From assembly GCF_000190735.1 (NCBI RefSeq), contig NC_015177.1, positions 2,170,001-2,234,000 on the forward strand: a DNA stretch of 64,000 nucleotides. Reading direction: 5' to 3'. Positions 3,606 through 25,985 of this stretch are shown here, piece by piece. Source of the stretch: Pseudopedobacter saltans DSM 12145 (GTDB lineage Bacteria > Bacteroidota > Bacteroidia > Sphingobacteriales > Sphingobacteriaceae). Both the position numbers and the translations under genes were made by a program. How positions within the stretch are numbered: the stretch's first letter is position 1; every line of letters begins with the position of its first letter. The notes beneath the pieces are model-generated. The model saw only the letters and a list, made by a program, of their open reading frames with translations. It was not told where the DNA came from and ran no database searches.

Positions 3606-5057
3606 TTATTTCTTTTCTATGGTTGACGTAGCTACACTTTCCAGATTATCTACATTTAATGCTGTTACGCAATAAAAGCCTTTTTCTGCGACATTCATTG
3701 TAGTATTATTGGTGATACCTACAACTTTACCTGTAGCTTTCAAATCTGAAAAATAATATACCACACTTCTTAAATTGGCCCCGGATACCTTCCAGGTCAA
3801 TTCATTACCGCTTACGCTTAAATTAGTTGGAACGGTTGGCTTAGGAGCGACTTCCCTACCCGCAAAAGGCATAACGACATTATGACTGTAAAGCTCTTTT
3901 AGTTTATTGGTAATACCAATTCTATTAGCGATAACATCACGAGCTGAATAAATCGCAGAACCTACAACATACTTGTTTTTCTGTGCCAAATCAAATTGTC
4001 TTGCTAGTTGATCTACATTTTGAAATGCAGCTCCGCCATCCGAAGCGCCAAATTTATAATAACCATATCCAATAACAAGCTGTGCTTTCCCCCTAAACTG
4101 AGTCCAATCTGCAAGATTTCCTTCAAAAGGATTTGATGAATTTCCAATTTCCTGGTATAATTGAGGTATTAGGATATCTACCCATCCAGAAGATGTCCAT
4201 TTGGGCAGATCAGCAAACATAGTATTATAATTATAGGTTCTGCTAGCAGCTGGTGAAACTGAAAAAACAACCTCTGGCTTTGTCGATTTTATTGTATTAA
4301 AAACACCTTCAATAGCCTTTTCAACATTACCACGTCTAAAATCATCTTTCTTTGTATAAGCGGCTCCATATTTCACAAAATCAGCATCATCATTATAGGT
4401 GAATCCCGAAGGATAAAAATAGTCATCAAAATGAACCCCGTCCACATTATATTTAGTAATCAGATCTTTTACAATATCATTCAATCGCTGCCTCACTTCT
4501 GGCAAAGCCGGATTATATATACGAATGGTTGGCAAATCAATAACCCAGGAAGAAGGAATAGTGGACGGTAGTGTCGCAAATGAAGCCGACTCCGACGCTC
4601 GGGTAGAAATCCTATAGGGATTCATCCAGGCATGAAATTCCATACCTCTGGCATGTGTTTCATCAATTAAAAACTTTAAAACATCGTAACCCGGGTCTAC
4701 TCCCCTAGTACCGGAAACTGATGCCGACCATGGCTCATAAGGAGAGTTGTAAAATGCATCCGCCATTCCTTTAATCTGAAAAATCACTGCATTAAACTTA
4801 AGCTCTTGAAGACGATCCAACATGTCTTTATATTTTTGCTTTTGAGCAGCTTCCCCTCGTACTCCAGGCCAGTCCAATTCCCATACCGTCGCGAACCAGG
4901 CTGCCCGCATTTCTTTCTTAGGAAAATTCAAATCTGTGGAAACAGGTGGCTCTATACCAGGTGACGGTGTAGGCTTAGTTTCTGAGTCTTTACTACAACT
5001 ATTTAAAACCAGCGCCAAACAAACAAAAATACCTGCGTTAATGAGTAGTCTTTTCAT
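3606..5057 (-). CDS. GHL10 (DUF187) family glycoside-hydrolase lipoprotein
   Basis: 483 residues. A lipoprotein signal ends in LVLNSC with the modified Cys21, followed by S-K-D-S. The GHL10 domain spans about 48-370: it starts with EMRAAWFATVWELDWPGV and includes GMEFHAWMNPYR and DGVHFDDYFYP, the motifs of the DUF187/YngK/DigH family. A fibronectin-like C-terminal domain follows (about 400-480). E. coli DigH, a GHL10 protein, acts on denuded peptidoglycan glycan strands, so a similar substrate is plausible here. It is the last gene of the operon with susC, susD and the DUF4623 lipoprotein. A second GHL10 gene lies at 22706-24193. Confidence 0.88.
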   Translation of the reverse strand: MKRLLINAGIFVCLALVLNSCSKDSETKPTPSPGIEPPVSTDLNFPKKEMRAAWFATVWELDWPGVRGEAAQKQKYKDMLDRLQELKFNAVIFQIKGMADAFYNSPYEPWSASVSGTRGVDPGYDVLKFLIDETHARGMEFHAWMNPYRISTRASESASFATLPSTIPSSWVIDLPTIRIYNPALPEVRQRLNDIVKDLITKYNVDGVHFDDYFYPSGFTYNDDADFVKYGAAYTKKDDFRRGNVEKAIEGVFNTIKSTKPEVVFSVSPAASRTYNYNTMFADLPKWTSSGWVDILIPQLYQEIGNSSNPFEGNLADWTQFRGKAQLVIGYGYYKFGASDGGAAFQNVDQLARQFDLAQKNKYVVGSAIYSARDVIANRIGITNKLKELYSHNVVMPFAGREVAPKPTVPTNLSVSGNELTWKVSGANLRSVVYYFSDLKATGKVVGITNNTTMNVAEKGFYCVTALNVDNLESVATSTIEKK

Positions 5058-5130
5058 ATCATCTATATTAAATGTAACGAAAGCTAAAGGGCATAATTCA
5101 AATCATTATGCCCTATTATTCCGTTGAAAA

Positions 5131-6558
5131 TTAGTCTTTAGCAATATTTACTGGAAACTCAATAATCGCAAATCCTGCGTCTGTAGTAGCACCATAAATC
5201 ATTAGCTTTTGATCTTTACCTTTTGCATCTTTAACCACATAAAATCCTGATTGAGTACCAGGAGCTGTATTTGTAGCTCCGGAAATTAGAAACTCATACA
5301 CAGGCTTTTTCTCGGTTTGTTCAAAAGCTACAAAAGCATCATTTATAGTTGCTCCTCTTGTAATATTATAAACTCTTAACACAGAATTTATACCATTAGG
5401 AGCTCCCCTTGGAATTGTTATTGTCAATAAATACCTCTCTCCATTAAAATTAATGACTCTAGGATCAGCAGAGCCTATCGGTAATGTTGATACAGCAAAA
5501 GTATGAGAGGCCTTACCCGAAGCATCAATTAAAGATATCGGCTTAGAATGCCCGCCTATAATATAAGTTCCCGTATTTCCGACTAAATTAACTGTAGACC
5601 ACTGCTCATAGTTAGTTGCTGTACTAATCAAAGAAACCTCTGTTGATCTGTTATAATTTTCAATCTTAACTCTGATAATATTAGAAGTAGCAGAAGTAAA
5701 AAAGGCATAACCATTACCATTAGCGTCTAAAGCTATAGAAAAATTGTCCCCATGACGTGCTGCCGCCCCTGGGATGGCAGCTACATTAATATCCGCGACT
5801 ACTTCCGGTGTAGATGTGGGGCTAGCCCAATGGTAGAGTTTTAATGGAGATGTAGCGGCCCCCGACAAACTAGCAACGTAAGAATGTCCATTTACCTGAG
5901 CAGCCATATTATAAGAATAAGTACCTCCCGTAACCCCGGTAGTAGACAGTGGAATTGGTGTTTTATCATTAACTTTAAGCTTTTCGACATCCAATAAATG
6001 TACACCAGAAGTTCCTCTACTTGCAATTAATACATATTTACCATCAAACCCAGTTCCTCTTGTAAGTTGCCCTGCAAAAGCTGGATAAACTGCAGCCGGG
6101 CCTTTATTTGCAGAAAAATCATAGACAGTAGGCAGGCTAAAATCTGCACCATAAACTGGAACTTTTAAACGAAGTTTAACCAAATATTCACGATAACGCG
6201 GTAAATTCTGTACTTTAATAACAATAGTTTTTTCACTCTCTCCTTCTAGAAAGGTTACTGGATAAACCTCCTTATCCAATGTTGCGCCATTTGATAATTC
6301 AGCTTCAAATTTCAAATTTTGGAAATTAGTTAAGGTATCTAATCTTGGAAAAGTAATTTCTTTCGTGTCTTCATTTACAACCCCCTCAACCACTCCATTC
6401 CCTGTTTCTCCTGCACTAACAATCTTAATCGACTTTATCACCGTAAAATTGCTACCAGAATCTAAAGCTTCAGGAAAATCATCTGAACAAGAAAACAGAT
6501 TAATCAACACAAACAGACTCGCCAGCCCATATATTGACATTTTATTTAATGATTTCAT
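5131..6558 (-). CDS. DUF4623-type surface lipoprotein with DUF5018-like N-terminal domain
   Basis: 475 residues from the ATG at 6558; an in-frame start at 6582 would add eight residues that do not resemble a signal. The lipoprotein signal ends NLFSC (Cys24). A small beta domain (about 32-125) resembles the DUF5018 type, and a propeller-like region (about 135-470) resembles DUF4623. It lies 29 bases after susD and before a GHL10 hydrolase, the position where Sus-like loci encode surface glycan-binding proteins, so glycan binding is the likely role. The T9SS protein at 24366-25985 shows a related propeller region. The family names are from memory of sequence style and would need a profile search. 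Confidence 0.7.
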   Translation of the reverse strand: MKSLNKMSIYGLASLFVLINLFSCSDDFPEALDSGSNFTVIKSIKIVSAGETGNGVVEGVVNEDTKEITFPRLDTLTNFQNLKFEAELSNGATLDKEVYPVTFLEGESEKTIVIKVQNLPRYREYLVKLRLKVPVYGADFSLPTVYDFSANKGPAAVYPAFAGQLTRGTGFDGKYVLIASRGTSGVHLLDVEKLKVNDKTPIPLSTTGVTGGTYSYNMAAQVNGHSYVASLSGAATSPLKLYHWASPTSTPEVVADINVAAIPGAAARHGDNFSIALDANGNGYAFFTSATSNIIRVKIENYNRSTEVSLISTATNYEQWSTVNLVGNTGTYIIGGHSKPISLIDASGKASHTFAVSTLPIGSADPRVINFNGERYLLTITIPRGAPNGINSVLRVYNITRGATINDAFVAFEQTEKKPVYEFLISGATNTAPGTQSGFYVVKDAKGKDQKLMIYGATTDAGFAIIEFPVNIAKD

Positions 6559-6587
6559 TTTTTCAGTTTTTAAAATTAACAATCAAA

Positions 6588-8402
6588 TTAATTCTGAGGC
6601 CAACCTTCTGTTTGCTTCAAAACGTAACCTCTGGATGCGTATTGATCAATCTGAACTAACCCTACAGGAGTCAAATAAGGATTAATATTTGCTATATTTA
6701 AAAATGGTAAACGAGGCTTATTCGTTTGGTTTTTGTAGAATCCAATCATCAAACCACCATTGGAACCATTATAGATGGTTTCTTTGCCAGTTAAATCTAC
6801 AACAGACAATACATTAACATTCTTGGCCGCTAACTCTGTTGATAGCTCTGTACTAAAATTAACCCATCCACCTGACATCAAATCTTTATTTAAAGTATTA
6901 TCGATATACTCCAATTTTTTCCAGCGCCTTAAATCAGTCAAACGAAAAGTTTCAAATGCAAATTCAAGTCGACGCTCTCTTCTAATTTCCCACAAAAGCG
7001 GAGAAACTTCAGGATCACGATTTGGATCGACTGGTATGGCCCCCAAAACTAAATTTGACACCTTACTAACCCCTCTATCAAGTGCTTCTTGAGCCACAGG
7101 ACGTAGACGTATTTTATTAATAGACTTATTTATATCATCCTGAGAAACAGCCACTCCCCCTAGTGTTTCTAATTCTGCTTTTGCTTCAATCCAATTCAAC
7201 AAAACTTCAGCATAGCGTAAAACAGGAGCATCAGTTTCGTTTTTGTCACCTGTATACTCTGCTGGCAAAGCTTGTCCATTTACTTTTACAGCCTTCTCGA
7301 TTTCCCTAGGAAAATACTTTGTGATATAATACATTGAGCTCCGGTTTAAAGCATTAGGTTTTGAGTAAAACGTAGCCTCAAAACGAGGATCTCTGGTTTT
7401 AATCATGTTAGCCAAATCAAATTTTGCCGCGTCTGCTAAAGTTGAATTTTCAAAAGGCCTGCCATCCGTACATAAATAAGCTTTTAGAAGATCAGTAGTA
7501 GGTCCATTATTAGTAGACTCTTGTAAATTACTATTAGAAGCTATCGAATGGCGAATATTCTGAGCGCCATCATAAACCCGATACAGCACCATATCCTTAT
7601 TACCTTTCAAATCTTTTGACGTGAATTGTAATTTATAATCTGTAACAATATCATATTTACCACTGTTCATATCAATCTGCGCGCACTCTACAACCAATTC
7701 ATAAAACTTTTTAGCTCGCTCAGCATTATTGTAATGGTATTTTTGCCAAGATGCTTCGATAAGCGCTAACCTAGAGATAAAGCCTGCCGCGATGAATCTA
7801 TTTAAATTTTGGTCTCCATCGTTCGTACGAATATTATCCAATACAAAACGCCAATCCGCATAGACATGATCCATCACTTCATTACGTGGAGTTCGAGCCT
7901 TGTACAACTCATTCAGATCCGTATCAGCAACCTCTTTATCAATATATGGAACATCTCCATATATTCTTACCAATTCTGCATACTCAAAGGCTCTAAAAAA
8001 TTTCCCAACAGCTAACCAGTGATTTTTGGCCTCAGCCGTTAAAATATTACTCATTCTTGTTTCAACTCGATCAATCATTATATTAATTGACCGTACATTA
8101 CTATAGCTCCAAATACCACTATTAGGAACCGAACGAGTTAAATTTGGTTGATTACCAAGAACAACCATGTCATCATTATTTGTATTACCAATTAATGGTA
8201 CATTACCACTAGAAAAACCACTTCCATAACCTTCGAAATAATCCGTGTAATATTTGTTAGCATAAAGCCTCACCTTATTTTCACTGGTCCACCCATTCGA
8301 GTTGTCATCTAATGTTGTCAGGGGAGGACGATCTAGAAATTTTTCACAGCTAGAAAAAGAAAGCAATATAGCTGATGTGAATAATATATATTTAAATTTC
8401 AT
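6588..8402 (-). CDS. RagB/SusD-family nutrient-uptake lipoprotein
   Basis: 604 residues. The lipoprotein signal ends SFSSC (Cys19), followed by EKFLDRPP, the usual SusD opening. The TPR-like SusD fold is evident from blocks such as NHWLAVGKFFRAFEYAELVRIYGDVPYID, shown here only in part by the Y-G-D-V-P-Y-I motif near residue 155, and from the C-terminal WEIRRERRLEFAFE block near 475. It lies 17 bases downstream of its susC partner. It would bind the oligosaccharide ligand on the cell surface and seal the SusC barrel. Confidence 0.94.
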   Translation of the reverse strand: MKFKYILFTSAILLSFSSCEKFLDRPPLTTLDDNSNGWTSENKVRLYANKYYTDYFEGYGSGFSSGNVPLIGNTNNDDMVVLGNQPNLTRSVPNSGIWSYSNVRSINIMIDRVETRMSNILTAEAKNHWLAVGKFFRAFEYAELVRIYGDVPYIDKEVADTDLNELYKARTPRNEVMDHVYADWRFVLDNIRTNDGDQNLNRFIAAGFISRLALIEASWQKYHYNNAERAKKFYELVVECAQIDMNSGKYDIVTDYKLQFTSKDLKGNKDMVLYRVYDGAQNIRHSIASNSNLQESTNNGPTTDLLKAYLCTDGRPFENSTLADAAKFDLANMIKTRDPRFEATFYSKPNALNRSSMYYITKYFPREIEKAVKVNGQALPAEYTGDKNETDAPVLRYAEVLLNWIEAKAELETLGGVAVSQDDINKSINKIRLRPVAQEALDRGVSKVSNLVLGAIPVDPNRDPEVSPLLWEIRRERRLEFAFETFRLTDLRRWKKLEYIDNTLNKDLMSGGWVNFSTELSTELAAKNVNVLSVVDLTGKETIYNGSNGGLMIGFYKNQTNKPRLPFLNIANINPYLTPVGLVQIDQYASRGYVLKQTEGWPQN

Positions 8403-8419
8403 TTCTTTCCTTTTAATGA

Positions 8420-11400
8420 TTAAAAACCTAATTGAACTCCAACTGAAGCTGACTTAAAAGTAGGATTTGATGTTCCCGTTCTACCTAAGTTATAGTTAGA
8501 ATCTTTTAACATAGAATATCCTGAAATCGTCTCAGGGTCAATTGGCAAGCCTCTTAATTTATCAAACGTAAACATGTTCTCTAATGAGATAAAGAATCTT
8601 ACATTTGATAACTTAACTCTTTCTACTACTGTTTTTGGAATTGTATATCCTATAGAAATATTCTTAATTCTCAAATACGCCATGTTTAACATATATCTAG
8701 ATTGTGCCCGCATAACGTAACCTTCATCAGCACCATTATAATTCCAAGCTCGAGGATAAAAAGCATTAGTACGATCAGGCCTCCAATAATCCGTCGCAAA
8801 AGTTAAAGGCATCCCTCCCTCTTTTGAATAATATCCTGGGATAGCAAGCTGTCCGGATCCCCAGATTTTTCTTTTTCCAACTCCTTGTAGGAATACTGCT
8901 AAGTCAAAACCTTTCCAATCTGCACCAATACGAAAGCCAAACTGATAACGAGGAGTAATGTTTCCAATCACCACACGGTCACCGGGAGATCCATTTGTAC
9001 CTTTTCCTGCATCAATGTATCCATCACCATTAACATCAACAAACTTGATATCTCCTGGACTAATTAACAAGGTTTGATTACCATCTTCGAAATAAGTTTG
9101 ATACACAGGGTTATCTCCAGCCAGCATATTAGTACGTTTACTAGTGCCATTGTAAATGATGTTAGTTTGTACAAATTTACCATTAGCATCATACACAAAG
9201 TCTTCCGCCTGGAATAAACGATCGGTTACAAACCCATATACATCTCCATATCTTCTTCCTGTAGAATAGGTTGTACTTAACGATCTATCTTCCCATGGGG
9301 TTTCAAAATCAGCACCCTTTGTGATAAATGTAGTTGCATCAGAGATATTTGCCATTAGATTTAAACCCAACCCTTTTTCGAACCGATGGTTAAAATCCAT
9401 TTCCAATTCCCACCCACGTGTACGTAAATTACCATAATTTCCCAGAGGAGCTCCAGTACCTAAAGTTGCTGGTCTAAAATCACCTGCAATAATCATATTA
9501 TTGGTATTTCTCTCAAACCATTCGGCTGTAACACCAAATTTATTTTTGAAAAATTTTAAATCAACTCCAACATTCAGGTGTTCAATATCTTGCCATGTTA
9601 AACCTGCCCCAACCAATCTCGGTGTCCCTATAATAACTGTTGGTGTTCCGGCAGAGCCAATCCATGTTGTTTTCCCTCCTGACGTCATCTCACGCATATA
9701 CAATCCATTACTAATAGATTGATCACCTATACTTCCCCAAGAGGCTCGAAGTTTAGCAAAACTTAAAACTGGATTTAGTGTTTTCAATAAATTTTCTTCA
9801 GACAACACCCAACCTGCCGAGACAGATGGATACCAATTCCATCTCATATAAGACGGAAAACGTGACGAAGCATCCCTCCGAATATTTGCCTCGAGCAAGT
9901 ACTTATTATTGAAAGCATAATTAAAACGACCAAAAAATCCTATTTGAGAATCCCAGTCCCTAAACCCTGATGCCTTTTCGGTACCATCTGCGAAATTAAA
10001 GAAAGGATCTTCAGAATCGAACAATCCATTTCTGCTTGCAGATTGCCAATTTTCATCATTAGCAACAATATTAGTTCCGGCCATAAATTTAAATTCATGC
10101 CCTCCTGCAATATTCAAATTATAGGTAGAAAATGCATTAAATGTATGCTTTCTGCTAAATCTATTTTCTTGTCCATAAAATGTTTGAGCAGGTAGAACGT
10201 AATCTGTCATTGGAAACTGATAGGCCAACATCCCACCATTATCAGTTGGAACTCCATTTTCATCTACATAAATCTGTCGCCCATTTTCATCCCTCCAAGG
10301 CTCCACTCCATACCAATGTGTCTTAGCACTTAATTGAGGTATTGAAGATTTAAAATCTTTAGTCAAAGTGCTGTAAGTATAATCGGCTTGTAAATCCCAT
10401 TTTTTAGTAAACTTAACAGTTGTACCAAGATTAAGATTTAGATATTTATCCGTTTTAACTGCATCTTTAGAAGTTCTGGCAGTATAAGCTGGATCAATGA
10501 TATCTTTACCATTTTCTTGAACCCCGACAGGAAATAAAAGAGACCACCTATACAGATATAGCCAAGGGTCAGCTGCAAATCCTGTTGAGTTTGTTGAATT
10601 GGGATATCTTTTAGTACCTTCTGAATAAAGTGCAGCCCCCCTTAAACTGACATGTTCACTTAACTCTGTTGAAACTTTCAAAGTAGGATTAAAACGTTTG
10701 AAATCATCATGAGGAGCAGGCTTCATCATACCTTGTTGTCCCAAATAGCCTAAACTAAAATAATAATTTGTTCTACCGGTTCTACCGTTCAGCCCCAAAT
10801 TATGTTGATGAGAAAAAGGAAAATCTTTAACCATTGCATCAACAGGATCATAAAGTCTATAGCCAAATTTTTGCGTTCCATCCCATATCCAGTCACGTCC
10901 ATAAACTACCGGATCATTATTACCTATAACCCCTCCATACTTATCTTGCCATTCTCTTATTTTTTCTAAACTAGCTCTATCAACACGCCAAAAACCACCT
11001 GCAGGGCCTGCTTGTCGCATATTTTCGTGGGCATCAACCGTATATTCCAATCCTTCAATACCTGCTAATTCAATTTTCTTAAATGGAGACTGCCATGAAA
11101 GATTATTTGAATAAGTTACATTGTTGCTTTCAGTTTTAGCCCCTTTCTTCATTGTCACCAAGACTACTCCGAAAGCTGCTTTTGCTCCATAAATTGAGGC
11201 TGAAGCAGCATCTTTCAAAACAGTAATGCTTTCTATATCATTTGGATTAATATACTGAAGACTAGGAACCTCCACATTATCAACTAACAATAGAGGGCTT
11301 GCCCCTCCGTAAGGCGATCCTACTTGACCTCTAATCCTTAATACTGCATCAGAACCAACCTCACCACTGGGAACCACCACTGAAAGTCCCGGCACCGCTC

Positions 11401-11884
11401 CTTGCAGTCCACGACCAGCATCCGAAATAGGCCTACCACCCATAATCTTCTCAACATTTACTGAAGATACTGCACCGGTTAAATGTCCCTTTTTCTGCTG
11501 ACCATAACCAACCACCACAACCTCTTCTAAAACTTTATCCTCGTTATCTAACGAAATATTCATTTGGGAAGAGGTTACGACAAGATCCCTTGGTTTATAA
11601 CCCAAAAAGGACACGCGCAGCGTTTGTCCATTTGTTGCCTCGATCTTAAAATGACCGTTTAAATCAGTCATTGTGGATTTTGAGGTTCCCACAACAGAAA
11701 CCGATGCTCCTGCAATAGGACCATCCTTATCAGACACCGTACCTTGTACGATATTCTGTTGCATCCCTCGGCGAGATGCTCCTTCTAAAAGATCTCTAGA
11801 CGCCACCTTCACCCAAGTCTCAGCATGGAGTTCGGGTAACAATAAAAATCCTAAAGCAGCAGAGAAGAGTAATGATTTTCTCAT
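8420..11884 (-). CDS. SusC/RagA-family TonB-dependent outer-membrane transporter
   Basis: 1154 residues. A signal peptide covers about 1-21. A short segment and a carboxypeptidase-regulatory-like domain (about 45-115) follow, then the TonB-box-like EEVVVVGYG near 120, the plug domain (about 130-250, with LLLVDNVEVP and YINPNDIESITVLKDA) and a barrel ending VGVQLGF. First gene of an operon with susD (17 bases downstream), a DUF4623 lipoprotein and GHL10. Its upstream region holds the 19-base motif shared with the first susC. Imports the oligosaccharide released by surface enzymes; peptidoglycan fragments are the inferred ligand. Confidence 0.94.
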   Translation of the reverse strand: MRKSLLFSAALGFLLLPELHAETWVKVASRDLLEGASRRGMQQNIVQGTVSDKDGPIAGASVSVVGTSKSTMTDLNGHFKIEATNGQTLRVSFLGYKPRDLVVTSSQMNISLDNEDKVLEEVVVVGYGQQKKGHLTGAVSSVNVEKIMGGRPISDAGRGLQGAVPGLSVVVPSGEVGSDAVLRIRGQVGSPYGGASPLLLVDNVEVPSLQYINPNDIESITVLKDAASASIYGAKAAFGVVLVTMKKGAKTESNNVTYSNNLSWQSPFKKIELAGIEGLEYTVDAHENMRQAGPAGGFWRVDRASLEKIREWQDKYGGVIGNNDPVVYGRDWIWDGTQKFGYRLYDPVDAMVKDFPFSHQHNLGLNGRTGRTNYYFSLGYLGQQGMMKPAPHDDFKRFNPTLKVSTELSEHVSLRGAALYSEGTKRYPNSTNSTGFAADPWLYLYRWSLLFPVGVQENGKDIIDPAYTARTSKDAVKTDKYLNLNLGTTVKFTKKWDLQADYTYSTLTKDFKSSIPQLSAKTHWYGVEPWRDENGRQIYVDENGVPTDNGGMLAYQFPMTDYVLPAQTFYGQENRFSRKHTFNAFSTYNLNIAGGHEFKFMAGTNIVANDENWQSASRNGLFDSEDPFFNFADGTEKASGFRDWDSQIGFFGRFNYAFNNKYLLEANIRRDASSRFPSYMRWNWYPSVSAGWVLSEENLLKTLNPVLSFAKLRASWGSIGDQSISNGLYMREMTSGGKTTWIGSAGTPTVIIGTPRLVGAGLTWQDIEHLNVGVDLKFFKNKFGVTAEWFERNTNNMIIAGDFRPATLGTGAPLGNYGNLRTRGWELEMDFNHRFEKGLGLNLMANISDATTFITKGADFETPWEDRSLSTTYSTGRRYGDVYGFVTDRLFQAEDFVYDANGKFVQTNIIYNGTSKRTNMLAGDNPVYQTYFEDGNQTLLISPGDIKFVDVNGDGYIDAGKGTNGSPGDRVVIGNITPRYQFGFRIGADWKGFDLAVFLQGVGKRKIWGSGQLAIPGYYSKEGGMPLTFATDYWRPDRTNAFYPRAWNYNGADEGYVMRAQSRYMLNMAYLRIKNISIGYTIPKTVVERVKLSNVRFFISLENMFTFDKLRGLPIDPETISGYSMLKDSNYNLGRTGTSNPTFKSASVGVQLGF

Positions 11885-16572: not shown

Positions 16573-16661
16573 AACAGCACAAATTTTGAAACAAAACAAA
16601 AATAGTTATAGTTCATCCAAGTTTTAAACCTGTAGAACTATAACTATCAAAAAATATCTAG

Positions 16662-18134: not shown

Positions 18135-18228
18135 ATATTCCTATTTATTCCTAAAATTAATTTAAGCCGTTTCTGCGATACAAGATGATAATAATTGTTA
18201 GAACAATTGTATATCCGATAAAAATAAT

Positions 18229-19038
18229 TTAATGATGATTATAGCTCTCAATTGCTCTTCTCACGTTACCGTATTCTTCAAGCAATTGCGCAGCTTTTTG
18301 TTCATTCACTCCGGTCTCTGCCATAATCATCCTTGTCCCTCTGCTTACCAATTTACTATTAGTCAGCTGCATATCAACCATTTTATTCCCTTTCACTCTC
18401 CCCAACTGAATCATAACAGCTGTACTTATCATATTTAAAACTAATTTTTGTGCAGTACCGGATTTCATTCTGGTAGAACCAGAAACAAATTCGGGCCCTA
18501 CTACAACCTCTACCGGAAATTTCGCTTCCTGCGCTATAGGACTTCCCGAATTACATACTACGCATCCGGTAACAATTCCGGTTTTATTCGCCTGTTCTAG
18601 CCCACCAATTACATATGGCGTTGTTCCCGAAGCCGCAATACCTATTACCACATCATCTTCATTGATACCAAATCCCTGAAGATCCTTCCAGGCCTGTTCC
18701 ATATCATCTTCAGCATTTTCCACGGCTTTTCTAATAGCCGTATCACCGCCAGCTATAATTCCCACTATCCAATCAAATGGCACACCGAAAGTTGGCGGGC
18801 ATTCAGAAGCATCCAACACACCTAATCTACCGCTTGTTCCCGCACCAATGTAAAATATCCTCCCCCCTTTCTTCATGCATTCTACTGCTACAGCCACCAG
18901 CTTTTCTATTTGCGGTATTGCTTTTGCCACTGAAGCGGGCACAGATGCATCTTCTTTATTTATATTGGTCAGAATTTCGTTCACAGACATATTTTCTAAA
19001 CCATTATAGCTTGATTCTTGTTCAGTTGTAAATTCCAT
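18229..19038 (-). CDS. murQ: N-acetylmuramic acid 6-phosphate etherase
   Basis: 269 residues from the ATG at 19038; a GTG three codons upstream is less likely. A SIS-domain protein with the MurQ blocks GAGTSGRLGVLDASECPPTFG (given in part: G-A-G-T-S-G-R-L-G, then D-A-S-E-C-P-P), the second acidic patch AVENAEDD and VSGSTRMKSGTAQK. Glu in the D-A-S-E block corresponds to a catalytic Glu of E. coli MurQ. It cleaves the lactyl ether of MurNAc-6-phosphate to GlcNAc-6-phosphate plus D-lactate in the cytoplasm. It sits between a NagZ-type GH3 gene (25 bases upstream) and the symporter. No MurNAc kinase is visible in the window. Confidence 0.96.
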   Translation of the reverse strand: MEFTTEQESSYNGLENMSVNEILTNINKEDASVPASVAKAIPQIEKLVAVAVECMKKGGRIFYIGAGTSGRLGVLDASECPPTFGVPFDWIVGIIAGGDTAIRKAVENAEDDMEQAWKDLQGFGINEDDVVIGIAASGTTPYVIGGLEQANKTGIVTGCVVCNSGSPIAQEAKFPVEVVVGPEFVSGSTRMKSGTAQKLVLNMISTAVMIQLGRVKGNKMVDMQLTNSKLVSRGTRMIMAETGVNEQKAAQLLEEYGNVRRAIESYNHH

Positions 19039-19063
19039 AATACACACACTAAAAATTAAAATT

Positions 19064-20755
19064 CTATAATCCTGCTCCGTACGGATAGGTTGTATCTATG
19101 CTCACCGGCAAACGACCAGAAGTCGTTATTTTGTTTCTTAATAATTTAAAGGCAGTTTCCTGCATCACCTCATCGTCTTCATAACAAGCCACCAGATTTT
19201 TAGCAGCAGTAAATTTATTGATAACATAAGGGCTCCCGAATACCAAGCTCAATACGTTATTCTTTTTTAAAACCGCATTAATCAAACTTATAGATGATGC
19301 TGATATTCCAAAGTTGTTGGCAGGATTTTTACTGTATTGATGCAGTCCCAGAATAATTGCACCATACTTATCATTTAGCTTGTTCAATATTTGTGTCACT
19401 TCATCCATAGAAGCATCATTAGCTAATAAATAAACGTCTGTATTGTAATTAGATTTTAGCAATCGGGATAAATTATTATCTGATTTTAATCCAACGCCTA
19501 CATAAGCGACTTTTGCCGTATCAGACAGATCAAATAATTGGGAATCAGTTTTATTAAGTACGGTAATAGCCTTTTCGTACACAGCCGTTTTTACTTTATA
19601 AACATCTTTATTCAAATCTGCCGTTATGTTAGTCGTATCAACTGGTTTTAACTGATTTAGCCCTAAATGGTATTTAGACAAAAGCACTCGGTTTACTTTT
19701 TGATCGATATCTTTCCAGGACAATTCCCCTTTTCTTATCGCTTTTCTTATACTTTTGACACTTCCTCTAATATCTCCGGGAAGACAAAGCATGTCGTTAC
19801 CCGCTATAATCGATTTGGCAGAAGCTAATCCCTGAGGATAAAATTTGGCAACGCCCTTCATTTCCAACGCATCAGTAAATGTCAATCCCTGATAAGCGAT
19901 TTCATTCCTCAAAAGATCAGTCACATTATTTTTAGATAGAGAAGTAGCCTTGTTTTCTTCCGTATCAATAGCCGGAATATATAAATGCGCCATCATCATA
20001 CTACCAACGCCTGCTTTTGCTAAAGCTTTAAAAGGAAAAAGTTCCAGGTTATTTAATTCTTCCCTTGATTTTAAAATAACCGGTAAATCATAATGAGAAT
20101 CAACATTTACGTCCCCATGACCCGGAAAGTGCTTGGCGCAGGCCATAATCCCCTCATCCTGCATTCCTTTCATTATTGCTGTTCCCATCAAAGCTACCAT
20201 TTCCTTGTTTTCTCCAAAAGAGCGTACATTAATTACCGGATTGGCTGGATTATTATTGATATCAACAACTGGTGCATAGTTTACCTGAATACCCGCCCTG
20301 TGACATTGGTCTGCTATAGCTTTTCCTACCCTGTATGCAAGAGCAGTATCCCGGGTAGCCCCCATAGTTAGCTGGTTAGGAAAAGGCTTTACATCCGAGA
20401 ATCGCATCCCCAATCCCGTTTCTCCGTCAACTGTCACCATCAATGGCACTTTCGATATAGATTGCAATCTATTTAAAACCTCCGCTTGCCTCACAGCCGC
20501 GCCCTGAAACAAACAAAGTGCCCCTATTTTATATTTTCTGATATCCTTGCTTACCTTTTCTTCAAAAAATACATCCTTATTGCCTTGCCTTTCCGATACC
20601 CGGATCACCATAAGCTGTGCTATCTTCTGCTTCTTATTTAACTTCTTTTGCACACTATCTGCCCACAGAACCGCTTCGGGAGTTTTTTGTAAAAATTCCT
20701 GAGCACAAACACTCAAAGAACTACAAAATGCCCATACAAAAAACAGTTTCTTCAT
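19064..20755 (-). CDS. NagZ-type beta-N-acetylhexosaminidase, glycoside hydrolase family 3
   Basis: 563 residues with a signal peptide ending SVCAQ, so the enzyme is periplasmic. The GH3 N-terminal domain (about 35-370) has VPLMVTVDGETGLGMRF and the NagZ-specific catalytic loop KHFPGHGDVNVDSHYDLP near 205, where the Asp/His dyad (D-S-H) replaces the usual GH3 acid. The nucleophile Asp lies in TFTDALEMKGV near 290. A C-terminal GH3_C-like region follows. It would release GlcNAc from GlcNAc-MurNAc fragments. It lies 11 bases after the phosphoesterase gene and 25 before murQ. Longer than cytoplasmic NagZ (about 340 residues), as is usual for exported Bacteroidetes GH3 forms. Confidence 0.93.
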   Translation of the reverse strand: MKKLFFVWAFCSSLSVCAQEFLQKTPEAVLWADSVQKKLNKKQKIAQLMVIRVSERQGNKDVFFEEKVSKDIRKYKIGALCLFQGAAVRQAEVLNRLQSISKVPLMVTVDGETGLGMRFSDVKPFPNQLTMGATRDTALAYRVGKAIADQCHRAGIQVNYAPVVDINNNPANPVINVRSFGENKEMVALMGTAIMKGMQDEGIMACAKHFPGHGDVNVDSHYDLPVILKSREELNNLELFPFKALAKAGVGSMMMAHLYIPAIDTEENKATSLSKNNVTDLLRNEIAYQGLTFTDALEMKGVAKFYPQGLASAKSIIAGNDMLCLPGDIRGSVKSIRKAIRKGELSWKDIDQKVNRVLLSKYHLGLNQLKPVDTTNITADLNKDVYKVKTAVYEKAITVLNKTDSQLFDLSDTAKVAYVGVGLKSDNNLSRLLKSNYNTDVYLLANDASMDEVTQILNKLNDKYGAIILGLHQYSKNPANNFGISASSISLINAVLKKNNVLSLVFGSPYVINKFTAAKNLVACYEDDEVMQETAFKLLRNKITTSGRLPVSIDTTYPYGAGL

Positions 20756-20766
20756 TTATCGATATC

Positions 20767-22608
20767 TTAAAAATTATACGCTAAACAATTAATTTTACCA
20801 TCCATGGTACTTACCAACACTTTATTATTTCCTATCGGAAGAACAACATTAACCAAACTATTGGATGTTTTGTATTGCCATACTACATCTCCGGATTTTC
20901 TATCCAATGCACTTACCAGCCCCGATTGAGACGGCACGAAAATCAATCCACTATCTTCAACTATCGCTGTCGGGCTAATTTCATAGGGTAAACTCAAGCT
21001 GGATTTCCAGTTTTCATTATACTCAGACTCCCTTGTAGATGCTCCAATAACCTTTCCATCCATAGTTTTTGCATAAACCGTGGACGAATCTCCAGAAATG
21101 CCAATAGATTCTCTTACCCTGTTATGTGGATTTGTGACTCTCCATAAAACTTCTCCCGTATTTGCATCGAAAGCCGTGAAATATCTATCCGGGGCAGCAA
21201 TAAACACTTTCCCATAAGCAGCAACCGGATAGCATGCCGCAGGAGAAAACATCCTATTGGAAGACCCGTTATTCCACTTCCAGATTTCCTTACCTGTTTT
21301 CAGATTCAGCGCATAAAAATACCTTCCCCAGCTTCCAAAAAATACTTTGTTCTGATAAACAAGAGGTTTCGTTACTACAAAGCCCTCTACATCTTTATAT
21401 TCCCAAACCAGTTTACCGTTTAAAATATCTATTGCCCTGAAAATATTATCAGAACTTCCGATATAAGCGACGTTCTGAAAAATTACAGGTGAACCTAACA
21501 CAGCTTTATTTGCTTTGATTTTCCATAGCTGTTTACCATTTTCGGCAGAAAGCCCGTATATAAAATGATCTGATGATCCAACAACAACTATTCCTGAGGC
21601 TACAGCAGGAGTCGAATAAATTTTACCATTGGATTTAAATGTCCAGATTCTTTTGCCTTTTCTTATATCCAGTGCATATACTTCTCCTTTTGTATTTGCT
21701 GTTATGGCATACGTTCCATACAACGAAATCCCAGTTCCTAAATCGCTATCATCCTGATATTCCCAAACTTGCTTTACTTTCGTTTGTTTTTTATTTACAT
21801 CATAAGAAGGTCTTTTATAAACAATCGAATCTGACTTATACTCCGACAGTTTTAAAGTCAACCAGGCGTCATTTAAGGGCATTAAAGGCCGCTTTTCCTG
21901 AAAAGAAGCGACTCCATTAGAAATGGTTATAATATTATATCCCCCTATCGAATCCTTAGCTCTTAAATTAGAGCGGCACATAACATTAGCTATTCCTTCA
22001 GAATTATATAATTTATTGATGTGGCCATGGCCACAAAGCATAAACTGAATATTCTTCTTTTTTAACAAATCCAGCGCACTGTACCAATTATTCAAAGATG
22101 AATCTTGTGGATAATGATTAACATATACAATTGGCCGATTTCCGGCTCTACCCAGTGCTTTTTCTAGCCAGACAATATCTTCGCGTGGGATTTGCCCTGG
22201 TCCCATACGCATATTCGGCCCTGAACCCGTTCCTAAAAACACTACCCCCTTATGCTCAAATTCAAAGGTACTTCTGCCAAAGACTGTATTAAAAGTATTG
22301 GCTCCGCTTTCAGACCAATTGCTATCATGGTTTCCGGGAACTACATACCAGGGTTTATTCAGCTTATCGAGTATTGTTTTCGCTATATTAAGTTCTTCGT
22401 CAGAACCAAATTCGGTGACATCACCTGACAAAATCACAAATTCAATTTCTTTACTTTTATTGATATCGTTTACGGTATTTTCTAAATCTGCAGCTCCCGT
22501 TGCATTTCCGATATGGGTGTCCGTCACTAATGCAAACTTGATATGATCACCATAAGCCGTACTTAAAGTGATTATCAACAATAGCGAAACAAGTGTCCGT
22601 TTAATCAT
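20767..22608 (-). CDS. Metallophosphoesterase with PQQ-like beta-propeller
   Basis: 613 residues from the ATG at 22608 (MIKRTLVSL); an upstream in-frame start would overlap the palindrome at 22657-22704. Signal peptide (about 1-20). A calcineurin-like phosphoesterase domain (about 20-235) shows all metal ligands: FALVTDTHIG, ILSGDVTE, VPGNHDS and LCGHGHIN. A seven- or eight-bladed PQQ-like propeller follows (about 280-610) with repeated blades such as GKRIWTF, GKQLWKI, GKLVWEY, GKEIWKW, GEVLWRV, GDVVWQY. Such fusions are periplasmic; the propeller may bind glycan or PG. It lies within the murQ operon, but its exact substrate is unknown. Confidence 0.87.
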   Translation of the reverse strand: MIKRTLVSLLLIITLSTAYGDHIKFALVTDTHIGNATGAADLENTVNDINKSKEIEFVILSGDVTEFGSDEELNIAKTILDKLNKPWYVVPGNHDSNWSESGANTFNTVFGRSTFEFEHKGVVFLGTGSGPNMRMGPGQIPREDIVWLEKALGRAGNRPIVYVNHYPQDSSLNNWYSALDLLKKKNIQFMLCGHGHINKLYNSEGIANVMCRSNLRAKDSIGGYNIITISNGVASFQEKRPLMPLNDAWLTLKLSEYKSDSIVYKRPSYDVNKKQTKVKQVWEYQDDSDLGTGISLYGTYAITANTKGEVYALDIRKGKRIWTFKSNGKIYSTPAVASGIVVVGSSDHFIYGLSAENGKQLWKIKANKAVLGSPVIFQNVAYIGSSDNIFRAIDILNGKLVWEYKDVEGFVVTKPLVYQNKVFFGSWGRYFYALNLKTGKEIWKWNNGSSNRMFSPAACYPVAAYGKVFIAAPDRYFTAFDANTGEVLWRVTNPHNRVRESIGISGDSSTVYAKTMDGKVIGASTRESEYNENWKSSLSLPYEISPTAIVEDSGLIFVPSQSGLVSALDRKSGDVVWQYKTSNSLVNVVLPIGNNKVLVSTMDGKINCLAYNF

Positions 22609-22656
22609 TATCTCCAGGGTATAATCTAAATCAAAAATAATAATTAAAATTGATAC

Positions 22657-22704
22657 ATGCATTAGTTTGCGTTTTTAAAATTTTAAAAACGCAAACTAAT
22701 GCAT
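22657..22704. repeat. Perfect 48-base palindrome between two genes
   Basis: The 24-base arms 22657-22680 and 22681-22704 are exact reverse complements with no spacer. Each arm contains the TTTGCGTTTTT / AAAAACGCAAA core that also occurs in the upstream regions of the locus. It sits one base from the stop codon of the GHL10 gene at 22706. It may act as the terminator of that gene, or as an operator for the genes downstream. The arms are AT-rich and no T run follows on the minus strand. Confidence 0.8.
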
Positions 22705-22705
22705 A

Positions 22706-24193
22706 TTATCTTCCTTTTACTGTTTCAGACAGTAAACTTTCGTTTTTCAATCTGTTTAAGGAACTTACCGCATACGTGAATTTTCGTCTTTTCAACTTAT
22801 CTTTTTCCTCAAAAACAGTAGCGGCGGAGTCGAAAGTCACACCTATAATATTTTCCGGATTGTTCACATCGATTTCGTTATTTTTAGGAAAACGATAAAT
22901 TACATAACCAAAAACACGTTCATCTTGCGGCCTTTTCCATCTAAGCACTCCCTTTTTCATTGTCAAATCCTTCGGGGAAACAGGCTTAGAACTGTCTATC
23001 CAATCCATTTCCGGAACCAAAGCTATCTTGGAATACAAATTGGTCCGCAAGGAGTCTTGAAATCCTCCAAGGTTGTTGGTTACCGATTTGGAGCTAAAAT
23101 AAACGCTACCCTGTATGTTAGGGTTCTTTCTTAAATATGCTATTTGCCGTGGCATTTGCGATGGATCATCCCATCCGTTTTTAGTTTCCGTCAATCGATA
23201 AACACCATGCCCTACATACACATGCTTTCCATAAGCGTTGCTCCCCCACCAATCCAGCAATTTCTCATAAGCCGCGGGTGCATAGTTAAATGGGAAGTAT
23301 ATTTGCGGATTCACATAGTCAATCCAGCCTTTTTCGGTCCACTTTAAAACATCTGCATATAATGCGGAATAGCCAGACAGTCCATTGGTATCAGAACCTT
23401 TGGGGTCCTCTTTTTTATTTCGCCAGATTCCGAATGGGCTGACACCAAATTTCACATAAGGTTTCTCTTTCTTAATATTATCAGCTACTGATTTTATCAA
23501 TAAATCTACATTATTCCTTCTCCAATCATGAATATCTGTAAAACCATTTGGATAGCGAGCAAATGTTGTCGTATCAGGCATAAGCTCTGCAGCTGGATAC
23601 GGATAGAAATAGTCGTCAAAATGAACACCATCGATATCATAATTTTTAACCACATTAATGATAATTTTATTAATATAGTCTCTTACTTCCGGCAAGCCCG
23701 GATCAAAAAATTTCTTTTTTGAATAGGTAAAGAACCATTCAGGCTTCTGATGAGTGATATGGTTCGGACTAACTAAACTTTCGTTGCTGTCATTCGTAGC
23801 CCTGTATGGATTAAACCAGGCATGCAGCTCCATTCCTCTTCTATGTGCCTCCCGAATAGCAAATTCCAGGGGATCATAAAATGGCTCCGGAGCTTTCCCT
23901 TGCTGGCCTGCGATGAAATAACTCCACAACTCTTCCCCATTTGCATAGAAGGCATCGGCTGAAGGACGAACCTGAAACATGATCGCATTCATTTTATTTT
24001 TCTGATGCTCATCCAATATTCTAATCAGTTCATCTTTTTGCAAATCCGAACTTAAGCCTGCCTTTGATGGCCAATCGATATTTTTTACGGTTGCAATCCA
24101 AACACCTCTGAATTCTCTCTTAGGCGGTATTTTAGCAAATAAATCACCAATTATAATAGTTGAGGCTATAAATAAAAAAATATTTTTTTTCAT
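22706..24193 (-). CDS. GHL10 (DUF187) family glycoside hydrolase, periplasmic
   Basis: 495 residues. A signal peptide (about 1-20, ending DLFA-K) without lipobox contrasts with the lipoprotein paralogue at 3606-5057. The GHL10 domain (about 25-375) starts REFRGVWIATVKNIDWPS and has AIMFQVRPSADAFY, GMELHAWFNPYRA and GVHFDDYFYPYP. A fibronectin-like tail follows (about 400-490). It likely cleaves glycan strands, by analogy with the GHL10 protein DigH. It follows the T9SS protein gene by 172 bases and precedes the phosphoesterase. The gap 24194-24365 holds AAACGCA at 24325-24331, a fragment of the locus motif. Confidence 0.88.
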   Translation of the reverse strand: MKKNIFLFIASTIIIGDLFAKIPPKREFRGVWIATVKNIDWPSKAGLSSDLQKDELIRILDEHQKNKMNAIMFQVRPSADAFYANGEELWSYFIAGQQGKAPEPFYDPLEFAIREAHRRGMELHAWFNPYRATNDSNESLVSPNHITHQKPEWFFTYSKKKFFDPGLPEVRDYINKIIINVVKNYDIDGVHFDDYFYPYPAAELMPDTTTFARYPNGFTDIHDWRRNNVDLLIKSVADNIKKEKPYVKFGVSPFGIWRNKKEDPKGSDTNGLSGYSALYADVLKWTEKGWIDYVNPQIYFPFNYAPAAYEKLLDWWGSNAYGKHVYVGHGVYRLTETKNGWDDPSQMPRQIAYLRKNPNIQGSVYFSSKSVTNNLGGFQDSLRTNLYSKIALVPEMDWIDSSKPVSPKDLTMKKGVLRWKRPQDERVFGYVIYRFPKNNEIDVNNPENIIGVTFDSAATVFEEKDKLKRRKFTYAVSSLNRLKNESLLSETVKGR

Positions 24194-24365
24194 AATGTAT
24201 AAGGTATAACAGACTTCAGAATATGCCTTGACATATTTCTTTTAATTGATAAAACATTTTGAATTAAGCATTTGCCACATTTATAACAAGTGCTATTAAC
24301 ATACAGGTTTTCATTAAACCTACTAAACGCAATAAATCTAACCACGGAGATACCATAACCATATA

Positions 24366-25985
24366 CTATCTTTTCACGATTTTGTGACTTTTCACGTCGG
24401 CTTCACTACCTGTAACCTTCAAAAAATAAACCCCTGTAGGATAGTCTTTTAAAGAAATAGAAATCATCGCCTCTGAGGAAGTCCCAGACAACAACAACTT
24501 ACCCATTGAATTATAAACCAGATAGTTGATTTCAGACCTTAACACATTATCTATATTAACAAGGTCTGCCGTAGGGTTTGGATAAACATAAACCTTACTT
24601 AAACCGCTTTTTATGAATTTAACATCATACAATTTAAACTCTCCATTTTTATCTACCTGTTTTAGCCTATAATAATTGATACCGTTTAAAGGGCTTTCAT
24701 CTATAAATTGATAATTAAGAACAGAGTTAGAATTCCCGCTTTCTGCTTTTGAAGCAATGGACCCAATAATTTCAAAATTTTGACCGTCTCCAGAACGCTG
24801 CACCTCAAATTTATCGTTATTACTTTCGCTTTGAGTTTTCCATACAAGGGTGTTTTTGCCGTTTTTGATGGAAGCGGTAAAATCGGATAAGGAAACTGGA
24901 AGGGTACCGTCTAAATTAAATGTCAAAGAATATTTAGAAATAGCATTATTTGTAACCAATTGATACAAATTCAACGTATATTTTCCACCTGAAAAGTCAC
25001 TGGCCTTAACAATATTCTTCGATAAACTTACATCTGAAAAACCAGAATTAGATGTAGCACTAAACGTATAATTACCTCCATTTAGTGTTTTCACCAGACT
25101 ATAATTCGTATTTTTATCATACTCGTTACCTAAGATTTTATATACTCTAATATTTTTCCCTACTGCTAAACTTCCCCCGGTTACGGCTAAAAATCCCGTT
25201 TCATTAATACTAAAATATTTAATCTGCGAAAAAGCTGTATTCGATGTTCCATCATAAATTATCGCAGGTAAGATGTACGAATCATAACTACCTGTATTAG
25301 AGTTATATTTAAAAAATTTCTTTGCTATCCCTCCTGTATTTGACGATACAAAAAAACTGGACTTCGACAAATCTGCTTCATCTGGAACTATTGAGATAGA
25401 CATATCCGCAGAAGCTGTCCCCATATCAATAGAACGCACAAAATCAACTCCATTGGATATATTTCTTTTATATATATAAACTACATTAGTAGTAGAACCT
25501 CCAATAAACAAAACCGCCTGATCACCGTAACCTGCTACATCAAAAGAATCTCCCATTCTAGGCATAGACGACATCCCGGATGGATACGGCAAAGACAAAG
25601 GAATTATAGCAGAATTCTCATTCGCTAAGTAGTTTACTGCAATAGACTGTCCGTCAGAAGAACTTGAAACAGCCGTTCGCATTGTGACAGAATAAATCTC
25701 TCCACTTTCAGTAACTCTTATCTTGGTATTCTGAAAACCGGTTCCAGGAATAATATCTTTAACATAAGAACCGTTGTTCGGATTTAAAATATCAACTTTC
25801 CCTCCTCTTGTAGAAACATATACCCGCTCTCCTCCCTTATAATAAGACAAGGAATAAGTTTGACTCGATGAAGTAAATTGGCCAACCCCGGTACTACCTA
25901 GTACTTGCCAATCATAATCACCTTGTGCATTAGTATTTACCCCTATAAAAAGCATAGGAATTAAATAGCGTAATTTTTTTTTCAT
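24366..25985 (-). CDS. T9SS-exported protein with DUF4623-like propeller
   Basis: 539 residues. Signal peptide (1-20, ending NTNA-Q), a propeller-like region (about 25-350) with resemblance to the DUF4623 part of the lipoprotein at 5131-6558 (compare SSMPRMGDSFDVAGYGDQA here with GAAARHGDNFSIALDANGN there), a linker domain beginning LPVSLSDFTA, and a type IX sorting domain (about 465-539) with VYVYPNPTADLVNI, YNSMGKLL and PTGVYFLKVTG. The protein would be secreted to the surface by T9SS and may bind the locus substrate. First gene of the right half of the locus. Confidence 0.8.
   Translation of the reverse strand: MKKKLRYLIPMLFIGVNTNAQGDYDWQVLGSTGVGQFTSSSQTYSLSYYKGGERVYVSTRGGKVDILNPNNGSYVKDIIPGTGFQNTKIRVTESGEIYSVTMRTAVSSSSDGQSIAVNYLANENSAIIPLSLPYPSGMSSMPRMGDSFDVAGYGDQAVLFIGGSTTNVVYIYKRNISNGVDFVRSIDMGTASADMSISIVPDEADLSKSSFFVSSNTGGIAKKFFKYNSNTGSYDSYILPAIIYDGTSNTAFSQIKYFSINETGFLAVTGGSLAVGKNIRVYKILGNEYDKNTNYSLVKTLNGGNYTFSATSNSGFSDVSLSKNIVKASDFSGGKYTLNLYQLVTNNAISKYSLTFNLDGTLPVSLSDFTASIKNGKNTLVWKTQSESNNDKFEVQRSGDGQNFEIIGSIASKAESGNSNSVLNYQFIDESPLNGINYYRLKQVDKNGEFKLYDVKFIKSGLSKVYVYPNPTADLVNIDNVLRSEINYLVYNSMGKLLLSGTSSEAMISISLKDYPTGVYFLKVTGSEADVKSHKIVKR

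Follow-up and report, generated by a model that had tools for sequence, protein, structure and literature searches.

Gene content and layout of the locus

Pseudopedobacter saltans 113T (formerly Pedobacter) is a soil bacterium and a strict aerobe (PMC3236043). Its genome is one chromosome of 4,635,236 bases, and the stretch of 64,000 nucleotides analysed here, referred to as the window, covers positions 2170001-2234000. The left part of the window contains a cluster of minus-strand genes, among them the gene for the N-acetylmuramic acid (MurNAc) 6-phosphate etherase MurQ, which was examined as a candidate polysaccharide utilization locus (PUL) for peptidoglycan glycans. Peptidoglycan is an abundant source of carbon and nitrogen in soil, and our search turned up few publications on outer-membrane loci devoted to its uptake.

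An earlier note on this DNA had described a NagZ-type GH3, MurQ, a symporter and a dehydrogenase in one minus-strand run, with two GHL10 proteins, a SusC/SusD pair and surface proteins around them. Scans with Pfam and NCBIfam profiles confirmed this description, and every gene named for the cluster was found on the minus strand. The features of the locus, in window coordinates, are as follows.

1-184, minus strand: start of the gene for a SusD-like lipoprotein (whole gene at genome positions 2168730-2170184; PF12771, 185.5 bits)
196-3270, minus strand: second SusC-like TonB-dependent receptor of the locus (PF07715/PF13715)
3606-5057, minus strand: GHL10b, exported lipoprotein, Cwp19-like (PF02638, 209.5 bits; Cwp19 5oq2, E = 1.9e-78)
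5131-6582 (likely start 6558), minus strand: DUF4623 lipoprotein, propeller-like (PF15416, 899 bits)
6588-8402, minus strand: SusD (PF07980, 102.5 bits)
8420-11884, minus strand: SusC (TIGR04056, 744.1 bits, over the cut-off)
12417-13456, plus strand: broken transposase DDE_Tnp_1_6 in an insertion sequence remnant (PF13751, 54.5 bits for 13127-13456)
13753-16599 (likely start 16572), minus strand: DLD, a dehydrogenase with flavin adenine dinucleotide (FAD), 4Fe-4S and cysteine-rich domains (PF02913, PF01565, Fer4_8, CCG)
16662-18134, minus strand: SSF symporter, proposed (anhydro-)MurNAc importer (PF00474)
18229-19047, minus strand: MurQ, MurNAc-6-phosphate etherase (TIGR00274, 313.8 bits against a cut-off of 302)
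19064-20755, minus strand: NagZ-type GH3 beta-N-acetylglucosaminidase, exported (PF00933, 259.6 bits)
20767-22662 (likely start 22608), minus strand: MPPE, an exported calcineurin-like phosphoesterase with a PQQ/BamB-like propeller (PF00149, PF13360)
22706-24193, minus strand: GHL10a, exported, Cwp19-like (PF02638, 236.1 bits; Cwp19 5oq2, E = 5.2e-96)
24366-25985, minus strand: T9SS-tagged secreted protein, membership uncertain (TIGR04183, 43.7 bits)

The genes from GHL10a through DLD (run 1) are separated by intergenic gaps of 11-94 nt, which is operon-like spacing, and SusC, SusD, the DUF4623 protein and GHL10b (run 2) follow one another with gaps of 17, 5 and 73 nt. The 1868 nt between the two runs hold the transposase gene, which is frame-broken and belongs to an insertion sequence remnant at 12255-13657 whose matching ends, read by eye, are GGGCACTGAAAAAG and its reverse complement. 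The adjacent SusC/SusD pair, 17 nt apart, together with GHL10 and GH3 enzymes that have signal-like N termini, gives the cluster the make-up of a Sus-type PUL. MurQ passes the curated family cut-off, and its top solved matches are the etherases 4s12 and 4lzj. The predicted model of the DUF4623 lipoprotein (pLDDT 84.3) has as its top fold match the DUF4623 structure 4ftd (TMq 0.83, 42% identity), and the protein is a possible surface glycan-binding protein.

Conservation in related loci

The first 31 kb of the window and 160 fetched stretches made up a comparison set of 161. Stretches L046-L104 surround MurQ matches, for the most part those with better scores; L106-L185 come from named genomes and represent the best 80 of 584 places that encode SSF; L186-L195 were chosen for SSF and MurQ lying close together in a sample of the phylum; and L105 and L196-L205 were chosen deliberately (one GHL10 locus, seven unlinked DLD genes, two unlinked SSF genes and one AnmK gene). 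An SSF-MurQ locus was defined as the two genes on the same strand and at most 6 kb apart. Such a pair is present in 65 of the 161 stretches, and removal of four SSF-sequence duplicates left 61 distinct loci. Partner genes received their family names by scanning one or two representatives of each family with Pfam and extending the assignment with custom profiles.

Partners recurring in the 61 loci are SusC-like proteins (42), MPPE (34), SusD-like proteins (31), DeoR (27), GH3-beta-lactamase fusions (25), GHL10 and NamZ (22 each), DLD and GH9 (21 each), polysaccharide deacetylase (16), HGSNAT-like proteins (10), GH3, DUF4623, MLE and DUF5009 (9 each), a NagB/PIG-L fusion (8), AnmK and GH18 (6 each), NlpC/P60 (5) and NAGPA (3); BadF kinases occur in none. 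In the 96 stretches without an SSF-MurQ pair, NamZ, MPPE, MLE, NlpC, DeoR, GH9 and BadF were each found zero times. Those stretches contain GH3 five times, GHL10 three times, GH3-beta-lactamase, DUF5009 and SusC-like proteins twice each and GH18 once, as well as one AnmK and seven DLD genes, all eight of which had been fetched on purpose. Because the homologous loci carry NamZ, the GH3-beta-lactamase fusion, NlpC/P60 and MR_MLE epimerase-like proteins, the comparison supports a predicted role in the uptake and breakdown of peptidoglycan glycans. The earlier note had proposed this role, and the Cwp19 matches of the GHL10 proteins point the same way.

Among 121 sampled genomes of the family, MurQ is present in 118 (E <= 1e-20), an SSF homologue in 115 (E <= 1e-120) and DLD in 40 (E <= 1e-100). 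In at least 46 of the 121 genomes SSF and MurQ are no more than 3.5 kb apart, and of the 40 genomes with DLD, 14 have it at most 3.5 kb from that SSF; counts against MurQ are lower bounds, and some assemblies are fragmented. By our estimate chance would place DLD beside SSF in about 0.1 genome (7 kb in some 4 Mb, times 40), and the link of DLD to MurQ and SSF is real. Beyond the family, the SSF-MurQ pairing was seen in Pontibacter, Cesiribacter and Flavobacterium, and MurQ adjoins SSF in 22 of the best 80 of the 584 SSF places.

The earlier note had bounded the locus at 3606-25985. The genes are there, but the locus continues to the left beyond 3606 and beyond the window edge, and it includes a second SusC/SusD-like pair as well as a DeoR regulator. 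The left flank holds a trio consisting of the receptor at 196-3270, the SusD-like lipoprotein (genome 2168730-2170184) and an adjacent protein of 158 residues. These are 79%, 72-74% and 60-65% identical to their counterparts in the same-genus loci L046 and L050, where the trio stands directly upstream of MPPE-GH3-MurQ-SSF-DLD. The same order is found in L075, with a GH3-beta-lactamase replacing GH3 and trio identities of 70% (762 residues), 61% and 52%. The DeoR gene, at genome positions 2165665-2166408, encodes a protein 74% identical to the DeoR beside the L050 cluster. In other genera (e.g. L048, L055, L062, L073, L076 and L088), it is SusC-SusD-DUF4623-GHL10b that precedes MPPE or MurQ, together with SSF, SusC being counted only where the stretch extends far enough. 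The window thus unites two modules that relatives carry before one common core. The trio is upstream of the core in the relatives and downstream of it in the window. As the insertion sequence remnant splits the two runs and the trio sits on the opposite side, the locus looks rearranged. At the other end, no counterpart of the T9SS-tagged protein at 24366-25985 was clustered with it in the first 60 stretches compared. In L046, from the same-genus genome G108, the SSF gene beside MurQ (L046:10362-11839) is split by a stop codon, and its neighbours look intact.

The metal-ligand motifs of MPPE (DTH, GD, GNHD, NH and GHGH) are invariant in 25 aligned sequences. Its predicted model has a pLDDT of 87.9, but propellers dominated the match lists of the fold search, so that the fold of the phosphoesterase domain was hardly probed; at the sequence level there is a weak match to 2dxl, a phosphohydrolase (E = 1e-8). 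Three loci contain NAGPA, a phosphodiester glycosidase domain. In L111 it is joined to Golvesin_C, Metallophos and CHRD domains in a protein of 1281 residues, encoded at 4923-8768 beside MurQ and on the opposite strand; a protein of L115, similar in size, matches the NAGPA profile; and a lone NAGPA protein is encoded in L120 at 14358-15209. Since MPPE was detected in none of these three, it is as if NAGPA took its place. The linkage unit of wall teichoic acid is N-acetylglucosamine (GlcNAc) 1-phosphate on C6 of MurNAc, and MPPE may strip teichoic-acid linkages from the glycan, which would be a coherent role. A study of ShfP describes calcineurin-like domains joined to PQQ propellers or to NAGPA, and cites PhoD as acting on teichoic acids (PMC11188070). 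A possible role of the conserved phosphoesterase on teichoic-acid-bearing strands can be extended to a picture that we regard as unlikely, in which the loci are feeding systems for Gram-positive walls and MPPE (or NAGPA) would free the glycan of its teichoic linkage before lytic cutting, SSF uptake, AnmK, MurQ and respiration of D-lactate.

Other variations were seen in the compared loci. A GH9 enzyme with a CelD_N domain (L070:10688-13212 and others; 21 of 61 loci) occupies the place of GH3, often together with the polysaccharide deacetylase, and this GH9 may act as a glucosaminidase on de-acetylated strands. In a NamZ-MurQ-SSF cluster, L128:4041-7692, a DUF1611 protein lies by genes for an MR_MLE epimerase-like protein and an amino-acid permease, which suggests that stem peptides are used there too. 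Three records of metagenome-assembled genomes titled Rhizobium or Williamsia (L166, L168 and L179) encode SSF proteins 64-65% identical to that of the window. The lengths of the open reading frames in their flanks resemble those of Bacteroidota, L168 being like the Flavobacterium loci and L179 like L175, and for this reason the titles look like those of mislabelled bins.

Enzymes, candidate importer, kinase and dehydrogenase

Both GHL10a and GHL10b contain the GHL10 domain and are similar to Cwp19, and the N terminus of GHL10b has a lipobox-like LNSC sequence, as judged by eye. The earlier note had counted DigH among the GHL10 proteins, which we likewise presume to be so. In Cwp19 the GHL10 domain is reported to confer lytic transglycosylase activity, some reducing-end products being formed where there was no peptide on the terminal MurNAc (PMC6016235); DigH has been described as a denuded-glycan hydrolase (PMC12288456). 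Given their closeness to the lytic transglycosylase Cwp19, GHL10a and GHL10b likely act mainly by lytic cleavage, with anhydro-MurNAc as the intermediate.

GH3 carries at residue 208 the sequence KHFPGHGDVNVDSH, an instance of the NagZ-type motif, which we take to be KH(F/I)PGxGxxxxD(S/T)H. This motif is present in 31 of the 34 GH3 and GH3-beta-lactamase proteins of the SSF-MurQ loci. GH3 matches the beta-N-acetylglucosaminidase 6k5j and B. subtilis YbbD/NagZ; it is a longer, exported form and falls below the cut-off of the NCBIfam equivalog PRK05337 (150.6 against 207 bits). Its N terminus is signal-like by eye, and GlcNAc would therefore be removed before import. For the GH3-beta-lactamase fusions of the relatives, one characterised member was reported as of 2020 (PMC6987092).

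The genome has one copy of SSF at E <= 1e-120, the best candidate for an (anhydro-)MurNAc importer. The AmpG-type model TIGR00901 reached 117.7 bits with its top genome match, against a cut-off of 350. For copies of SSF unlinked to MurQ (L110 and similar stretches), the same kind of neighbourhood recurs in many Sphingobacteriaceae; in L110 the SSF gene lies between a recR-like and a lysine-decarboxylase-like gene.

The absence of a MurNAc kinase from the window, from which the earlier note concluded that the kinase must lie elsewhere or another route exist, is borne out: AnmK is encoded once, at another place in the genome (345.6 bits against a cut-off of 24). A search for a BadF-type kinase had also been proposed. 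Such kinases do exist in the genome, but none (E <= 1e-10) was found in the window locus or in the 61 SSF-MurQ loci, six of which include AnmK (L074, L180, L184, L190, L192 and L194). Because of this difference the kinase absent from the window is probably AnmK, and a BadF MurNAc kinase was demoted from the missing step to a rival for it. Two of the BadF kinases fall under the Pfam cut-off but are clearly homologous to Tannerella-type kinases of solved structure (8oqw, E = 1.2e-69; 8oqk, E = 5.4e-59). A study of MurK ties Ser133 and Pro134 to MurNAc binding (PMC10465942), and 8oqw was taken as MurK on the grounds that it carries these residues. In pairwise alignments to 8oqw and 8oqk, both P. 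saltans kinases read Asp-Ser at these positions, which makes their predicted activity on MurNAc uncertain. A fusion of NagB-like and PIG-L de-N-acetylase domains (genome 1199767-1201704) is encoded 3 kb from one of them, with MFS and ROK genes nearby, a neighbourhood fitting GlcNAc use. The fusion, which also occurs in 8 of the 61 loci, probably performs the step from GlcNAc-6-phosphate to fructose-6-phosphate. A third, divergent BadF homologue (genome 2150163-2151014; 191 bits with a custom profile, no Pfam match) directly precedes a GAPDH gene.

DLD consists of FAD_binding_4, FAD-oxidase_C, 4Fe-4S and CCG domains. The earlier note had called it a quinone-type D-lactate dehydrogenase, a name that goes beyond what the sequence shows. 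The Dld of E. coli has a membrane-binding C-terminal domain and no Fe-S clusters; DLD has Fer4 and CCG domains and the membrane-binding domain is not among its matches, so that a Dld-type architecture was rejected. We presume that the Fe-S D-lactate dehydrogenase Dld-II of Shewanella shares the architecture of DLD. Among the 25 NCBIfam families listed out of 30, DLD reaches no equivalog cut-off, and it misses those of YdiJ (188.9 against 1350 bits) and GlcD (179.8 against 567.9 bits). The best match in the PDB is the lactate dehydrogenase subunit LctD (7qh2, E = 7.3e-30).

DLD directly follows SSF, with a gap of 3-245 nt, in 17 of the 21 loci that contain it; in the remaining four, of Flavobacteriia type, the distance is 7.6-9.1 kb. 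The link between MurQ and DLD recurs in Sphingobacteriaceae, Pontibacter and Flavobacterium, and in four Pontibacter loci DLD lies 13-24 nt from SSF. The proposal that the dehydrogenase closes the MurQ pathway is upheld as far as this linkage goes (21 of 61 loci; 14 of 40 genomes), and from the gene context we infer that the substrate is D-lactate.

Proposed pathway and comparison with known systems

Sequence and synteny show which genes are present, that their layout is operon-like and that the set is conserved. The reading that we favour, with a probability of about 0.7, is that the locus is a Sus-type system for feeding on peptidoglycan glycans. In this pathway MPPE would first take a phosphoryl group off peptidoglycan fragments. 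SusD, the DUF4623 protein and the surface GHL10b would bind the fragments, which would enter via SusC. The exported GHL10 enzymes would cleave the MurNAc-GlcNAc bond, mainly as lytic transglycosylases, the exported GH3 would take off GlcNAc, and SSF would bring (anhydro-)MurNAc inward. AnmK, encoded elsewhere, would yield MurNAc-6-phosphate, MurQ would cleave this to GlcNAc-6-phosphate and D-lactate, and the FAD/Fe-S dehydrogenase would convert D-lactate to pyruvate and pass the electrons to respiration. The cluster would offer a candidate (anhydro-)MurNAc importer and an AnmK-MurQ route joined to D-lactate respiration, and it suggests a possible substrate for those SusC/SusD pairs and DUF4623 proteins to which none has been assigned.

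Several observations weigh against this pathway or its generality. DLD lies away from SSF in 26 of the 40 family genomes that have it (a few broken assemblies among them), and 32 of 46 SSF-MurQ genomes have no DLD beside the pair, the number of pairs being at least 46. In a tree of 24 full-length DLD proteins (17 linked to the cluster and 7 unlinked) the linked copies do not form one clade, and a single origin is not supported; the label changes four times, which 14 of 500 shuffles equalled, so the linked copies are somewhat grouped. SSF need not be specific for MurNAc, since 79 of the 125 SSF copies listed have no listed MurQ beside them. In the phylum sample of 296 genomes SSF is found in only 67 (E <= 1e-90), and MurQ in 211 (E <= 1e-40). 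AnmK is unlinked to the locus in P. saltans itself, and the NamZ of many loci yields free MurNAc, which needs another kinase. A distant GH3 adjoins MurQ in five stretches without SSF, so the GH3-MurQ pairing by itself is not diagnostic. The comparison loci were, moreover, selected by similarity and not at random.

The imported sugar could be free MurNAc, released by NamZ or by a GHL10 hydrolase acting on denuded strands and phosphorylated by a BadF kinase in the manner of Tannerella. This main rival to the route from anhydro-MurNAc through AnmK to MurQ is possible but doubtful. It gains from the two BadF kinases that match solved Tannerella-type enzymes and from their third, divergent homologue, from NamZ (22 of 61 loci, and one unlinked copy in this genome, beside a formyltransferase gene), and from the description of DigH as a denuded-glycan hydrolase (PMC12288456) and the reducing-end products that Cwp19 gave where the terminal MurNAc carried no peptide (PMC6016235). 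It loses by the absence of BadF from loci that include AnmK six times, by the Asp-Ser at the Ser133 and Pro134 positions of MurK, and by the GlcNAc-type setting (NagB/PIG-L, MFS, ROK) of one of the kinases. The anhydro-MurNAc route remains the first choice because the GHL10 enzymes look lytic. It is also unlikely that DLD acts on another D-2-hydroxy acid and that its position is coincidental or regulatory. Its top NCBIfam score is indeed to a D-2-hydroxyglutarate dehydrogenase, YdiJ, at 188.9 bits far under the cut-off of 1350, and most DLD genes (26 of 40 genomes) are not beside SSF; against this stand the 14 genomes in which they are, where chance predicts well below one, and the spacings in the Pontibacter loci (13-24 nt) and in the Flavobacteriia-type loci (7.6-9.1 kb).

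A role in recycling the cell's own wall, instead of using foreign peptidoglycan, is quite improbable for the locus. A recycling enzyme would be expected to be widespread, and 118 of the 121 family genomes do have MurQ; however, the genome has a second MurQ gene beside an S41 protease gene (L085), the typical setting of unlinked copies, and the MurQ of the window goes with surface lipoproteins and with two SusC/D-like pairs of the outer membrane. We give still less weight to another amino-sugar polymer, such as chitin oligosaccharides, as the substrate, with MurQ serving for incidental MurNAc. GH18, GH9 and polysaccharide deacetylase genes (6, 21 and 16 of 61 loci) would fit chitin, and a GH3-beta-lactamase enzyme cleaves chito-oligosaccharides (PMC6987092), but NamZ, NlpC/P60, epimerase-like proteins, AnmK and DLD recur in the loci, and none of these is known to take part in the use of chitin.

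The proposed feeding on peptidoglycan glycans can be compared with several known systems. The muropeptide rescue operon of Bacillus subtilis (NagZ/AmiE/NamZ/MurQ) likewise combines a NagZ-like GH3 with MurQ, and relatives of the P. saltans locus add NamZ and GH3-beta-lactamase fusions. Uptake in B. subtilis is by a phosphotransferase system, whereas SusCD and SSF are proposed here. The experimental precedent for MurNAc import is Tannerella forsythia, in which a single operon for exogenous MurNAc encodes a transporter, a MurNAc kinase and MurQ (PMC5790795). The P. saltans locus likewise has a transporter with MurQ; the Tannerella transporter is assigned to the sodium symporter superfamily in the introduction of that paper and to the MFS in its discussion. 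The kinase gene of Tannerella lies between the transporter gene and murQ, and no AnmK is predicted there (PMC7670621), whereas the P. saltans locus is kinase-free and AnmK is elsewhere. The complete murTKQ arrangement of transporter, BadF-type MurNAc kinase and MurQ was not found in the P. saltans locus.

Cwp19 shares the GHL10 domain with GHL10a and GHL10b, yet it is an autolysin and DigH is a cell-separation enzyme (PMC6016235, PMC12288456), whereas the GHL10 genes of P. saltans lie in a Sus-type nutrient locus and their products are proposed to serve feeding rather than autolysis or cell separation. MPPE joins a calcineurin-like domain to a PQQ propeller as in the ShfP group, and the relative L111 fuses Metallophos with NAGPA; ShfP is a forespore protein of Bacillus, whereas MPPE is exported and encoded in a PUL of Bacteroidota (PMC11188070).

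Our literature search, which covered mostly open literature, found no peptidoglycan PUL tied to D-lactate oxidation or AnmK, and no paper combining peptidoglycan, polysaccharide utilization loci, murQ, Bacteroidetes and SusD. Among the closest known systems is the murein-type PUL of a Urechidicola symbiont, of about 27 kb, with two susCD pairs, deoR, a sodium co-transporter, murQ, nagB and GH3/18/171/10, most genes of which its authors assign to murein metabolism (PMC10199937). Two susCD pairs, deoR, a sodium symporter, murQ and GH3 likewise occur together in the P. saltans locus. The Urechidicola list also has nagB, ampG, ampD, dacA and an L-Ala-D/L-Glu epimerase, none of which was seen in the P. 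saltans locus, and it names no lactate dehydrogenase, AnmK, phosphoesterase or DUF4623 (PMC10199937). A murein-type PUL has already been outlined in print, and what is added here is the link to D-lactate, the link to AnmK and a conserved exported phosphoesterase.

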